A DNA stretch of 36,006 nucleotides, taken from the NCBI GenBank assembly GCA_001820055.1, contig MHOK01000002.1, positions 1-36,006 of the forward strand. Reading direction: 5' to 3'. Positions 1 to 34,904 of this stretch are shown here, one piece after another. A program made the translations under genes and the position numbers. The number at the start of each line of letters is the position of its first letter. Positions within the stretch are counted from its first letter, which is position 1. The notes below the pieces were generated by a model. It made no database searches and was not told the origin of the DNA. It saw only the letters and a list, made by a program, of their open reading frames with translations. This DNA is from Candidatus Spechtbacteria bacterium RIFCSPLOWO2_12_FULL_38_22. Its GTDB lineage: Bacteria > Patescibacteriota > Minisyncoccia > Spechtbacterales > 2-12-FULL-38-22.

Positions 1-50
1 CAAATATATAATTTTAAAAAGCCTCCTAAAGGAGAGTTTTTAAAATTTCA

Positions 51-124
51 TGGTTGCCTCGCAGGGATTCGAACCCCAATTTCTTGGACCAAAACCAAGC
101 GTGCTGCCGTTACACCACGAGGCA
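51..124 (-). tRNA. tRNA-Gln (anticodon UUG), CCA encoded
   Basis: Reverse complement folds as a cloverleaf: acceptor TGCCTCG/CGAGGCA, anticodon stem CTTGG-TTTTGGT-CCAAG, T-loop TTCGAAT, then discriminator A + CCA. Confidence 0.95.
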
Positions 125-233
125 ATAAGTGTCTTGAAAAACTAATCTAAAAACATTTAGTATGCTTATTTTAACACATATTTTTCTAAATGAAAGAGCG
201 CACCTCGCGATGCGCTCTTCAACCCCGAAGGGT

Positions 234-318
234 TGGTAGGGGCGGTGGGACTTGAACCCACACATCTTACGATACTGGATCTTAAGTCCAGCGCGTCTGC
301 CAATTCCGCCACGCCCCC
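234..318 (-). tRNA. tRNA-Leu (anticodon UAA), long variable arm, CCA encoded
   Basis: Acceptor GGGGGCG/CGCCCCT, anticodon loop CTTAAGA, TTCAAGT T-loop, long variable arm, ACCA 3' end. Confidence 0.95.
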
Positions 319-335
319 ATGTTTTATAAACTTTT
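295..335. repeat. 41-bp direct repeat, copy A (5' end of intact tRNA-Leu plus 3' end of the GIY-YIG gene)
   Basis: gtctgccaattccgccacgcccccatgttttataaactttt is identical to 607..647 (offset 312). Confidence 0.95.
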
Positions 336-557
336 TAGAAACTCCTTACCAACCCCAGATTTTAAATATTTTTCTTTTTTTCTAGCTTTAATACGAGTCT
401 CAAATTTTTCTGTATATATAATTTTAAATGGTCTATATGCTTTAGTTGTTTTTTCATTATCTAGGTTATGTTCTCTAAATCTTCGATCCAAATTGTTTGT
501 TAAACCAACATAAATATAATTTCGAATTTTACTTTTTATTGCATACACTACGTACAT
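324..557 (-). CDS. Small GIY-YIG endonuclease family protein (about 77 aa)
   Basis: MYVVYAIKSKIRNYIYVGLTNNLDRRFREHN matches the GIY-YIG N-terminal pattern. The upstream part of the supplied ORF (to 632) is translated tRNA fragment plus palindrome, so the ATG at 557 is the likelier start. Confidence 0.8.
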   Translation of the reverse strand: MYVVYAIKSKIRNYIYVGLTNNLDRRFREHNLDNEKTTKAYRPFKIIYTEKFETRIKARKKEKYLKSGVGKEFLKSL

Positions 558-573
558 ACTTATAAATAAGTAT

Positions 574-632
574 TTAAGTCCATCACGCCTACCTGCCGGC
601 AGGCAGGTCTGCCAATTCCGCCACGCCCCCAT
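574..632 (-). pseudogene. Truncated tRNA-Leu 5' half interrupted by a 20-bp palindrome
   Basis: GGGGGCGTGGCGGAATTGGCAGA is identical to tRNA-Leu(UAA); then comes CCTGCCTGCCGGCAGGTAGG; then CGTGATGGACTTAA resembles tRNA-Leu CGCGCTGGACTTAA. No T-arm follows. Confidence 0.8.
588..607. repeat. 20-bp palindromic element (CCTACCTGCCGGCAGGCAGG), one mismatch from perfect
   Basis: Same family as 859..878; splits the truncated tRNA-Leu copy. Confidence 0.85.
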
Positions 633-647
633 GTTTTATAAACTTTT
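607..647. repeat. 41-bp direct repeat, copy B
   Basis: Identical to 295..335. Confidence 0.95.
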
Positions 648-689
648 GAGAGGCGAGCTGAGAGCGTAAAGCTTTATCAGCTCGCCTTC

Positions 690-766
690 TGGTACCCCAG
701 ACAGGACTTGAACCTGCAACCTGCGGATTAGAAGTCCGCCACTCTATCCAATTGAGCTACTGGGGC
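690..766 (-). tRNA. tRNA-Arg (anticodon UCU), CCA encoded
   Basis: GCCCCAG acceptor, anticodon arm GCGGA-CTTCTAA-TCCGC, TTCAAGT T-loop, ACCA. Confidence 0.95.
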
Positions 767-797
767 TCGTATCGTCGGATAAAAATATCCGACTGCA

Positions 798-889
798 TGT
801 TCCCTGTTGGATTTGAACCAACGACCTCCTCCGTATAAGGGAGGCGCTCTGCCGCTGACCTGCCTGCCGGCAGGCAGGGCTAAGGGAAC
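798..889 (-). tRNA. tRNA with UAU anticodon and Val-like body, D-stem interrupted by a 20-bp palindrome; possible pseudo-tRNA
   Basis: GTTCCCT-TA-GC[20 bp]TC-AGCGGCA-GAGC-G-CCTCC-CTTATAC-GGAGG-AGGTC-GTTGG-TTCAAAT-CCAAC-AGGGAAC-A. Removing 859..878 gives a complete cloverleaf. Confidence 0.85.
859..878. repeat. Perfect 20-bp palindrome CCTGCCTGCCGGCAGGCAGG inside a tRNA gene
   Basis: Sequence equals its own reverse complement; it separates TTAGC from TCAGCGG of the tRNA D-arm. Confidence 0.95.
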
Positions 890-895
890 AGGTCT

Positions 896-925
896 GGCCC
901 CTCACATGCGTGCATGTGAGGGGCC
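896..925. repeat. Inter-tRNA hairpin (14-bp stem, 2-nt centre)
   Basis: GGCCCCTCACATGC-GT-GCATGTGAGGGGCC. Confidence 0.9.
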
Positions 926-927
926 CG

Positions 928-999
928 TGGGCCTTCAGGGACTCGAACCCTGCCCGTCGGGTTAAAAGCCCGATGCTCTGCCTGATGAGCTAAAGACCC
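928..999 (-). tRNA. tRNA-Lys (anticodon UUU), CCA not encoded
   Basis: GGGTCTT/AAGGCCC acceptor, anticodon arm TCGGG-CTTTTAA-CCCGA, TTCGAGT T-loop. Confidence 0.95.
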
Positions 1000-1004
1000 G
1001 TGTC

Positions 1005-1036
1005 AACTCTTTCACATGCGTACATGTGAAAGAGTT
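1005..1036. repeat. Inter-tRNA hairpin (14-bp stem, 4-nt loop)
   Basis: AACTCTTTCACATG-CGTA-CATGTGAAAGAGTT; shares core TCACATGCGTRCATGTGA with 896..925. Confidence 0.9.
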
Positions 1037-1038
1037 CG

Positions 1039-1111
1039 TGGGCCCGGGTGGAATTGAACCACCCACCTTCTGTTTATAAGACAGATGCTCTAACCAATGA
1101 GCTACGGGCCC
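1039..1111 (-). tRNA. tRNA-Ile (anticodon UAU), CCA not encoded
   Basis: GGGCCCG/CGGGCCC acceptor, anticodon arm TCTGT-CTTATAA-ACAGA, TTCAATT T-loop. Confidence 0.9.
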
Positions 1112-1232
1112 AAATTTCGCCTCGTAAAATTTGTCCGCCGTAGTTCACAAGGACGTAGGCGGGCTACTATATCAAAAAAAGCCGAGATAAGACCCCGACT
1201 TAAAAATACAAATTAAATCGAAGTTTTATATG

Positions 1233-2315
1233 TTATTCACCAATAATTTCTATAACAGCTAATTCTAATGGCAACTGTGGCATTGGTGAATATTTGATAT
1301 TGTTTACTGCTTCCAGTAATTGTTTTATTATACCGTAAATTTTCTTTTCTGTCAATCCAGTTGTTTGAATTTTTGCTTTTTTTAATTCTTCTTTAGTTAA
1401 ATTACCCGATATTAAAACTTCGCTTGACGGACTTAATTTTAAAAACAACAACTTTCTTACATAATCTATAGAACTATTTATAAATTGCTCCAAATCCTCT
1501 CCCCCACTTACCATATCATTAATATATTTGAGTACCGCTTCTTTATTGTTTTCTATAATAAAATCTATAAAATTAGATATAGACGCTAAATCTGTAGCGC
1601 CTAATAATTTTCGAATTTCACTTTCCTCGATATTGTTTAACGAAAATATCTTACCCAAAATACTTTCCGCATCACGCAAAGAACCGCCGGAAGCGCCGGC
1701 TACTAAATTTAATACGCCATCGTCTATCTTTCTTTTTTCTTTGTTTGTTAAATTCTTTAACCGCCCCAGTATCTCTTCTAAAGTTAAAAACCTAAAATCA
1801 AAACGCTGTGTGCGTGATATTATTGTTGGTAAAAGTTTATGAGGTTCTGTAGTTGCTAAAACAAAAATAACATGAACAGGTGGCTCCTCCAACATTTTAA
1901 GGAGAGCATTGGAAGCCTCCTTGGTTAACATGTGTGCTTCGTCAATTAGATAAACCTTAAAAATTCCTTGATTAGGAGCAAATTGTACAGATTCCTTCAG
2001 CGCGCGTACATCATCTATCCCCCTGTTTGAAGCGGCATCGATTTCTATTAAATCTATAAAACTTCCATTATCTATTCCAGCGCATACACTACAACTTAAA
2101 CATACACCATCTTTTTCTTTTGAATCCTGACAGTTTAAAGTTTTTGTCAAAACACGCGCCATAGTTGTTTTCCCCGTGCCCCTAGGCCCACTAAACAAAT
2201 ATGCATGGGCTACTTCTCCCATTTTTATTGCATTTCGAAGAGTCGTAACTATATGCTCCTGTCCTACAATATCCTCAAAAGATTTAGGACGATACTTTCT
2301 ATATAAAACAGCCAT
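1233..2315 (-). CDS. dnaX: DNA polymerase III gamma-type subunit (short, 360 aa)
   Basis: YRKYRPKSFEDIVGQEHIVTTLRNA, GPRGTGKTTMARV Walker A, CxxC zinc motif, LEEPPVHVIFVLATTEPHKLLPTIISR. Confidence 0.97.
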   Translation of the reverse strand: MAVLYRKYRPKSFEDIVGQEHIVTTLRNAIKMGEVAHAYLFSGPRGTGKTTMARVLTKTLNCQDSKEKDGVCLSCSVCAGIDNGSFIDLIEIDAASNRGIDDVRALKESVQFAPNQGIFKVYLIDEAHMLTKEASNALLKMLEEPPVHVIFVLATTEPHKLLPTIISRTQRFDFRFLTLEEILGRLKNLTNKEKRKIDDGVLNLVAGASGGSLRDAESILGKIFSLNNIEESEIRKLLGATDLASISNFIDFIIENNKEAVLKYINDMVSGGEDLEQFINSSIDYVRKLLFLKLSPSSEVLISGNLTKEELKKAKIQTTGLTEKKIYGIIKQLLEAVNNIKYSPMPQLPLELAVIEIIGE

Positions 2316-2384
2316 AATTTTGTTTATAAACTCACACTAGCGAAACTTGCGTGTTTTGATTGTAGCATAAATTTATTAACTTAA

Positions 2385-2408
2385 AAACTCCGCAAATCTG
2401 CGGAGTTT
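2385..2408. terminator. Hairpin terminator-like element
   Basis: AAACTCCGCA-AATC-TGCGGAGTTT with flanking A/T runs. Confidence 0.7.
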
Positions 2409-2413
2409 AATTT

Positions 2414-3769
2414 TTAGACTACAATTGTCTGATTTCTTTCTGGGCCTACAGAAATATATTTAGCCGAGACATCACACGCCCGCTCTATAAAATCAACATA
2501 CAACTTTGCTTCATCGGGTAGGTCTTCTCTACTCCTTACTTCGGTAATACCTTTGTTCCACACAGGAAGGTTGCCCAGCACTGCCTCTGCGCCATTGAAT
2601 GCACACTCAACATGATTACAACTCTCGCATGTTGGGGCTCTCTGACAACGATAACTAAAACCTATTGGTATGGTTTTATCTAAACAAGATAAAACATCCA
2701 ACTTGGTTATCGCAATTTCGCTAAACCCATTCAAGCGAGAGGCGTAACGCAGAAGCGGTATGTCAATAGGCGCGCACATACGCGGACGAGCTGTTGTTGA
2801 ACCAAATTCACGCCCAACCTCGCGAACCAATGTATCAAAATTACCCTTACTAAAAGTCGGAAATGGGCCTGTGCCAACTCTCGTGCTGTACGCTTTTACA
2901 ACGCCTATTACACGCACTTCATTTGAAGGCACAACATTAAATGCAATTCCTGCACCGCTAAACGCGCCATTTGCGCCACAACTAGTTGAAGTAACAAAAG
3001 GATAAGTACCGTGGTCTAAATCTAACAATGCTCCCTGCGCGCCTTCCAAAAGCACACCCTGCCCTCTTGAAAAAAGAGCAATACGAAGTTCGTCGTCTGT
3101 ATTTCTAATAAATTCCTTAATCTCTTCAGCAGATTCCATATAATACTCAAATAAATCATCTACGCTTAAGAGTGTAAACTCCGAAAGTCCGTATAGTTGT
3201 TCCAATATGGGTAGATAAACACTCTGGGAACACCCATAAACTGACTCAAGGATTTGTCTTTTTTCTCTGTATCTTTCAATAAATAATTTATAAAAATCTC
3301 TGCGCAATAAATCGCCTACGCGCAATCCGCTTCTAGCCGCCTTATCTGCCCTAACCGGACCCATCCCACGCTTAGTTGTTCCAATTTTATCCGCGCTAGA
3401 TCTACTTTCTTCTTGAATACCGTCTAACAGCCTATGCCAGGGCATCACTAGGTGCGCTTTAGGACTAATGGCTAACTGATAGTCAGTTATTCCTGCTTTT
3501 TGTAAACCAACCAACTCCTCGCCATAAAGCACAAGCGCATCTACAACAGTTCCGGGACCAATAACATTTTTAATATTTGGGTGTAAAATTCCGGAAGGTA
3601 CTATATGAAGTTTGAATTCTCCCAGGTCATTAACCACCGTATGGCCCGCATTGTTTCCACCGTCGTATCTAACAACGTATTCGTAGTTGCCACTACTTGC
3701 TTCCAGATCTGTTATTTTTCCCTTACCTTCATCTCCCCACTGAGCACCAACGACAATAGTTAAAGGCAT
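2414..3769 (-). CDS. purA: Adenylosuccinate synthetase
   Basis: VVGAQWGDEGKGKI, GGNNAGHTV, GTTKRGMGP, STSCGANGAFSG motifs. Confidence 0.96.
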   Translation of the reverse strand: MPLTIVVGAQWGDEGKGKITDLEASSGNYEYVVRYDGGNNAGHTVVNDLGEFKLHIVPSGILHPNIKNVIGPGTVVDALVLYGEELVGLQKAGITDYQLAISPKAHLVMPWHRLLDGIQEESRSSADKIGTTKRGMGPVRADKAARSGLRVGDLLRRDFYKLFIERYREKRQILESVYGCSQSVYLPILEQLYGLSEFTLLSVDDLFEYYMESAEEIKEFIRNTDDELRIALFSRGQGVLLEGAQGALLDLDHGTYPFVTSTSCGANGAFSGAGIAFNVVPSNEVRVIGVVKAYSTRVGTGPFPTFSKGNFDTLVREVGREFGSTTARPRMCAPIDIPLLRYASRLNGFSEIAITKLDVLSCLDKTIPIGFSYRCQRAPTCESCNHVECAFNGAEAVLGNLPVWNKGITEVRSREDLPDEAKLYVDFIERACDVSAKYISVGPERNQTIVV

Positions 3770-4576: not shown

Positions 4577-4676
4577 GTTAGTAACTAGTAACACGCCTGC
4601 CTGCGGGTAGGCAGGCAACAAGTAACTAGTAATTTTTGTTCCGACACGTCGGGGTTTTTACTTGTTACTAGTTACT
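4577..4676. repeat. Intergenic inverted-repeat module (AGTAACTAGTAACA ... TGTTACTAGTTACT) enclosing a CCTGCCTGC-type palindrome
   Basis: Left arm at about 4580 complements the right arm at about 4663..4676; palindrome variant at 4596..4615. A similar module occurs at about 29543..29656. Confidence 0.75.
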
Positions 4677-23617: not shown

Positions 23618-23655
23618 AAATACCTCAATTCGCCAGCTGGCGAATTGAGGTATTT
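23618..23655. repeat. Perfect 38-bp palindrome without spacer
   Basis: AAATACCTCAATTCGCCAGCTGGCGAATTGAGGTATTT. Confidence 0.9.
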
Positions 23656-29542: not shown

Positions 29543-29656
29543 TTAGTAACTAATAACACGTAACAAGTAGCTAGTAATTTTTGAACCCCACACAATAAAA
29601 TTGTTTACTTGTTACTAGGTTACTGACTACCGCGAGCCTGCCTGCCGTCAGGCAGG
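29543..29656. repeat. Intergenic repeat module related to 4577..4676, with palindrome CCTGCCTGCCGTCAGGCAGG at 29637..29656
   Basis: TAGTAACTAATAACACG...AACAAGTAGCTAGTAATTTTTG...TTTACTTGTTACTAGGTTACTGACTAC parallels the 4.6 kb copy. Confidence 0.75.
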
Positions 29657-34858: not shown

Positions 34859-34904
34859 TTTGGAAAGTAAATACGCTCCCATGGGAGCGTATTTACTTTC
34901 CAAA
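34859..34904. repeat. Perfect 46-bp palindrome overlapping the stop codon of the 96-aa gene
   Basis: TTTGGAAAGTAAATACGCTCCCATGGGAGCGTATTTACTTTCCAAA. Confidence 0.9.

Follow-up and report, generated by a model that had tools for sequence, protein, structure and literature searches.

The closest known system is SegB, a GIY-YIG homing endonuclease of T-even phages that is encoded beside tRNA genes and introduces breaks inside tRNA genes, with recombination between the 5' part of the tRNA and the 3' part of segB (PMC13096335). The bacterial gene described below is likewise a free-standing GIY-YIG gene adjoining tRNA genes, and a 40-bp repeat at its locus suggests similar recombination; however, SegB belongs to phages whereas the present genes lie on chromosomes, the SegB paper reports no hairpin-bearing tRNA half, and cleavage by the bacterial nuclease is only putative. 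REP sequences, usually found in more than 100 copies, have an obligate RAYT transposase (PMC2817692). They share with the palindrome considered here the character of short dispersed bacterial palindromes, and some of the hairpins described below carry a tetranucleotide tail reminiscent of REPs, but the relatives that we searched contain only 0-19 copies each, there is no link to a transposase, and the location is inside tRNA genes. The insertion sequences IS1397 and IS621 target REP palindromes (PMC1525189). The likeness lies in insertion directed at palindromic DNA, whereas the insert here is a bare 20-bp palindrome without a gene. Rickettsia palindromic elements, in which palindromes also lie within genes, are only a loose analogy, being much longer and located mostly in reading frames. 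The 20-mer string, its translation LPAGRQ, and the combination of GIY-YIG, tRNA and Candidate Phyla Radiation gave no match in the open literature, and no description of the combined pattern (GIY-YIG gene, displaced tRNA and hairpins) was found there, a coverage that leaves out many subscription papers and all preprints. The finding reported here is real and is part of a larger pattern that is apparently undescribed.

The window, that is, the whole stretch of 36,006 nucleotides that was analysed, comes from a 24-contig draft assembly (93.7% complete) of a Candidatus Spechtbacteria bacterium and contains the following relevant features.

798..889, minus strand: interrupted tRNA-Ile(UAU) gene with an insert between positions 11 and 12 (below, 11/12), recognised from the sequence, from ARAGORN once the 20-mer is removed and from a partial Rfam match
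859..878: perfect 20-bp palindrome CCTGCCTGCCGGCAGGCAGG, the insert in this tRNA-Ile gene
1038..1111, minus strand: intact tRNA-Ile(UAU), differing in sequence from the interrupted one
574..630, minus strand: displaced tRNA-Leu(UAA) fragment, the 5' half (positions 1 to about 37), bearing a hairpin at 21/22
588..607: second copy of the palindrome, with one mismatch, inside the displaced tRNA-Leu half
324..557, minus strand: GIY-YIG endonuclease gene (77 aa, MYVVYAIKS...; PF01541, with UPF0213-type relatives in PDB) between displaced and intact tRNA-Leu
234..318, minus strand: intact tRNA-Leu(UAA), the partner of the displaced half
608..647, minus strand: first copy of a 40-bp direct repeat, consisting of a flank resembling the 3' end of the GIY-YIG gene plus tRNA-Leu positions 1-23
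296..335, minus strand: second copy of the repeat, consisting of the GIY-YIG stop codon region plus positions 1-23 of the intact tRNA-Leu

A first-pass annotation had described a perfect palindrome at 859-878 lying between tRNA positions 11 and 12 and had proposed that its removal restores a cloverleaf. Both statements hold, the coordinates being exact. Read from 889 to 798, the gene is GTTCCCT TA GC(20-mer)TC AGCGGCA GAGC G CCTCC CTTATAC GGAGG AGGTC GTTGG TTCAAAT CCAAC AGGGAAC A, in which, the insert apart, all four stems are perfect and the anticodon is UAU. With the insert in place, ARAGORN reports no tRNA in 798-889, and after its removal the program calls a complete tRNA-Ile(tat); the Rfam tRNA model matches the interrupted gene only partially (positions 9-63, 36.8 bits). 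The chance expectation for the 20-mer pattern in the window, with up to 3 mismatches allowed, is 0.00. A group I tRNA intron, which would be self-splicing and located in the anticodon region, was considered and rejected: the insert is 20 nt long and lies in the D-stem, and an Rfam scan of 1-3000 gave no intron family. The two different tRNA-Ile genes with the anticodon UAU belong to one array, and the only two CAU tRNAs called in the genome are both called as Met. The spacers of the array at 774-793, 896-925 and 1005-1036 form strong hairpins, two of them with a common core (CACATGCGTGCATGTG, CACATGCGTACATGTG).

The intact tRNA-Ile(UAU) gene at 1038-1111 has the same anticodon and in this respect makes the interrupted gene redundant. 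The two are not duplicates, and the interrupted gene has no sequence twin and no GIY-YIG gene beside it. Among 59 relatives, no uninterrupted ortholog was found, the best matches being Lys, Asn and other tRNAs at no more than 83% identity. Most likely, a dispersed hairpin repeat has disabled the tRNA-Ile gene of the window, a redundant copy that would be dead. That the tRNA still works, with the hairpin either protruding from the D-stem or excised from the RNA, appears quite improbable, although the cloverleaf around the insert is perfect and another genome, the draft of Parcubacteria GW2011_GWF1_45_5 (L059), contains a tRNA-Asp that is structurally intact and carries the palindrome at the same 11/12 position. 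This is the sole Asp tRNA among the 46 tRNA hits of that draft; each of its five family relatives has an intact Asp tRNA, flanked in three of them by orthologous neighbours. Against function, the folds predicted for both RNAs absorb the D-arm into the hairpin, and a cloverleaf with a protruding hairpin lies above the minimum by 14 kcal/mol for Ile and 7.5 kcal/mol for Asp; the genome of the window has the second, intact tRNA-Ile(UAU); and we know of no enzyme in these bacteria that would excise such a hairpin. Since tRNA-Asn is also not found in the L059 draft, the tRNA-Asp case is suggestive only. The broader proposal that some bacterial tRNAs function with a 20-nt hairpin at 11/12 or are precisely freed of it, so that the tRNA-Ile of the window and the tRNA-Asp of L059 would be five-armed or RNA-processed, strikes us as more doubtful still.

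Overlooked in the first-pass annotation was the nearly identical palindrome at 588-607, only 250 bp away, which is located at the junction of the D-loop and D-stem (21/22) of the 5' half of tRNA-Leu(UAA). The adjacent gene product contains the GIY-YIG catalytic domain (PF01541, E=2.5e-18, residues 1-67), and the direct repeat shared by 608-647 and 296-335 is perfect over its 40 bp. The tRNA-Leu locus of the window is a full example of an arrangement in which a displaced tRNA copy, a GIY-YIG gene and an intact tRNA follow one another.

With up to 3 mismatches allowed, the 20-mer occurs 11 times in the genome, which also had gone unnoticed, and 4 of the 11 copies lie in tRNA sequence, namely, in tRNA-Ile (11/12), in the halves of tRNA-Leu(UAA) and tRNA-Leu(CAA) (both at 21/22, a GIY-YIG gene being present with each) and in a fragment of tRNA-Arg(GCG) (11/12). 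The ends of contigs C1 and C22 overlap by about 65 bp inside this displaced tRNA-Arg fragment and probably join there, so the fragment is most likely located directly upstream of an intact tRNA-Arg(GCG). ARAGORN calls neither tRNA-Asn nor tRNA-Phe in this draft genome. Near-copies at 4596-4615 and 29637-29656 of the window are intergenic and adjoin repeats of the type GTAACAAGTAACTAGTAA; the arrangement at 4596 is seen again on contig C19 (L009). Two long perfect palindromes, at 34859-34904 (46 bp) and 23618-23655 (38 bp), are unrelated to the 20-mer.

A scan of 85,488 species genomes with a pattern consisting of the 20-mer and a T-arm yielded 43 stretches in Patescibacteria, Bacteroidota, Omnitrophota, Elusimicrobia, Ignavibacteria and other groups, isolates included. 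Over all loci, there are 47 distinct tRNA sites with the 20-mer across public genomes, excluding those not recognisable as tRNAs (L012 from the phylum scan and some of the 43 scan loci, e.g. L026, L034 and L049), and these sites fall at 21/22 (36), 11/12 (6), 23/24 (4) and 10/11 (1), position classes that were set by patterns chosen after the first examples and that leave a few further tRNA sites (L126, L027, L053) outside. An intact twin tRNA was present at 19 of 26 genome-scan loci, and the majority of hits are displaced, redundant tRNAs associated with GIY-YIG nuclease genes. A shorter version of the pattern was rare in 389 genomes of the phylum, occurring in three, in one of these without a recognisable tRNA; in viral contigs, no interrupted tRNAs were found. 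This recurrence bears on the possibility of an assembly artefact, which could be entertained for a 24-contig draft in which one interrupted copy lies at a contig end. Unrelated assemblies, however, one of them from an isolate, show the same insert at identical tRNA positions. Because the isolate Flavobacterium sp. SUN046 has an exact copy within a long contig, and a single-contig genome (G157, L131) has a nested variant, we regard an artefact as extremely unlikely.

Matches to the GIY-YIG family were detected in 165 of 194 genomes of the class. In a class-wide sample of 69 loci, of which the first 30 were the best matches to the GIY-YIG gene of the window and the remainder were picked among weaker ones, 55 of 74 GIY-YIG ORFs had an intact tRNA within 150 bp, on the same strand in every case. 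On the far side of the gene, a displaced tRNA copy was found in 40 of 56 GIY-tRNA pairs, compared to none in a control with reversed flanks. Typically, the order is a 5' tRNA fragment with a hairpin, the GIY-YIG gene and an intact tRNA, or else an intact tRNA, the GIY-YIG gene and a tRNA copy with a hairpin. Inserts of at least 8 nt were present in 29 of the 40 displaced copies, 12 such inserts being exactly at 21/22, and the other 11 copies had none (e.g. L201, L218, L234 and L236). Of 41 inserts, 36 fold significantly better than shuffled sequences and so are hairpins, of several families. The density of GC-rich hairpins is 12.8 per kb in displaced copies versus 0.59 per kb in the surrounding background; such hairpins are found in 23 of 40 displaced copies versus 1 of 40 intact copies, the latter set being ARAGORN-accepted by selection. 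Among the displaced fragments upstream of GIY-YIG genes, there are further hairpin families with fixed four-base tails, such as TTTA-GTCGCC...GGCGAC at 21/22 and CCCGCC...GGCGGG-TAAA at 9/10 (L127-L131, L134, L135, L138, L139, L141, L144), sometimes nested or three to a fragment.

Conceivably, the hairpin is a by-product of the GIY-YIG event itself, such that the nuclease or the subsequent repair opens the tRNA gene at 21/22 and leaves a palindrome at the junction of element and target. The predominance of 21/22 is compatible with this explanation, and so is the presence of the hairpin copy either upstream or downstream of the GIY-YIG gene, as both arrangements can be drawn as a single insertion at 21/22. 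A by-product is nevertheless rather unlikely: as many as three hairpins from different families may share one displaced copy, and some are nested (L139, L145, L131), which suggests repeated independent insertion; the displaced fragments extend beyond the hairpin and often reach the anticodon arm; and the 20-mer is widespread outside tRNAs as well.

The comparison of occupied and empty sites comes from Flavobacterium, where the arrangement in the isolate SUN046 sits downstream of yqeY. Among 30 yqeY loci of the genus, 27 have a plain intact tRNA-Arg, two have the GIY-YIG gene together with the palindrome, and in one the contig stops short of the tRNA, so that the palindrome is seen only where the GIY-YIG gene is present (2 of 30). 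Thus, at the yqeY/tRNA-Arg locus, occupied and empty sites occur in the manner of a homing element. In SUN046, the 3' end of the dead copy matches the native end seen in the closest relative, and the acceptor of the intact copy differs from that of the closest relative and matches other species; the native sequence 3' of the palindrome and the foreign-looking intact copy can also be read in favor of the by-product explanation. As for the initial proposal of a mobile palindrome that can land in tRNA genes, the landing is borne out by the occurrence of the same 20-mer at a few precise D-arm positions in several phyla, whereas the evidence for mobility consists of presence versus absence at this one syntenic site only.

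Another possibility is that hairpins land anywhere, and that those splitting the direct repeats around a GIY-YIG gene block its recombinational loss and are therefore the ones we see. This would account for both arrangements, for the several hairpin families and for dead copies as hosts, and the flanking repeat in the window, perfect over 40 bp, fits as well. Selective survival leaves the exact preference for 21/22 unaccounted for, as it does the interrupted tRNAs without a GIY-YIG gene, and long uninterrupted copies do occur (72 identical nt in L236); although possible, it seems unlikely.

The copies outside tRNAs offer a further view of site preference. Around 68 non-redundant copies of the 20-mer, no clear sequence consensus of a target was found. 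Of the non-tRNA copies, 10 of 57 (17.5%) are located inside a loop that belongs to a different inverted repeat (6 bp or longer), versus 1.5% of 1,140 control positions. The four best examples lie at stem-loop junctions with stems of 11-13 bp, three of them being related sites from one genome. In a sample based on the palindrome, 8 of 75 copies fell in tRNA sequence, versus 0 of 123 control points. Within the tRNA, 21/22 is the stem-loop junction of the D-arm, and 11/12 lies within the D-stem rather than at a junction. An element of REP type, with a Y1 (RAYT/IS200-type) transposase as its mover, could be envisaged, given the several hairpin families with fixed tetranucleotide tails (TTTA/TAAA, CAAG) and the three Y1_Tnp matches in the genome of the window. 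However, the 20-mer itself is tailless, and among 60 relatives it is present in 16 of 31 with Y1_Tnp and in 14 of 29 without, showing no association; we consider such an element improbable.

The reading that we prefer, with a probability of roughly 0.6, is that the 20-mer represents one of the several families of GC-rich hairpins found in these bacteria, a dispersed and self-complementary repeat. It would insert at stem-loop positions with no duplication of the target, chiefly in the tRNA D-arm, at 21/22 and less often at 11/12. The tRNA copies that harbor it are almost always spare ones, in which insertion may be tolerated owing to their redundancy, and the main supply of such copies would be a small, seemingly selfish GIY-YIG endonuclease element that resides at tRNA genes. 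By cleavage, this element would create the displaced copy and leave it on one side of the GIY-YIG gene, with the intact tRNA on the other, in either order, after which the displaced copy would gain one or more hairpins; the structure of hairpins, as single-stranded loops or cruciforms, probably guides the insertion. Several observations weigh against this reading: the tRNA-Ile gene of the window has perfect stems but neither a GIY-YIG gene nor a twin in sequence; the sole assembled tRNA-Asp of L059 bears the same insert at 11/12, which is inside the D-stem; only 17.5% of the non-tRNA copies lie in an obvious hairpin loop; 11 of the 40 displaced copies are free of inserts; and the presence of Y1 transposases is uncorrelated with the 20-mer, no enzyme that would move the repeat having been found.

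The dispersed-repeat reading points to a widespread bacterial system in which a GIY-YIG element occupies tRNA genes and the displaced copies are marked by hairpins at fixed D-arm positions. These loci provide a natural test of the way in which bare palindromes pick their insertion sites at stem-loop junctions, and the tolerance of a tRNA for an extra D-arm hairpin becomes directly testable. They also draw attention to tRNA pseudogenes of a kind that can be overlooked or miscalled by annotation pipelines.
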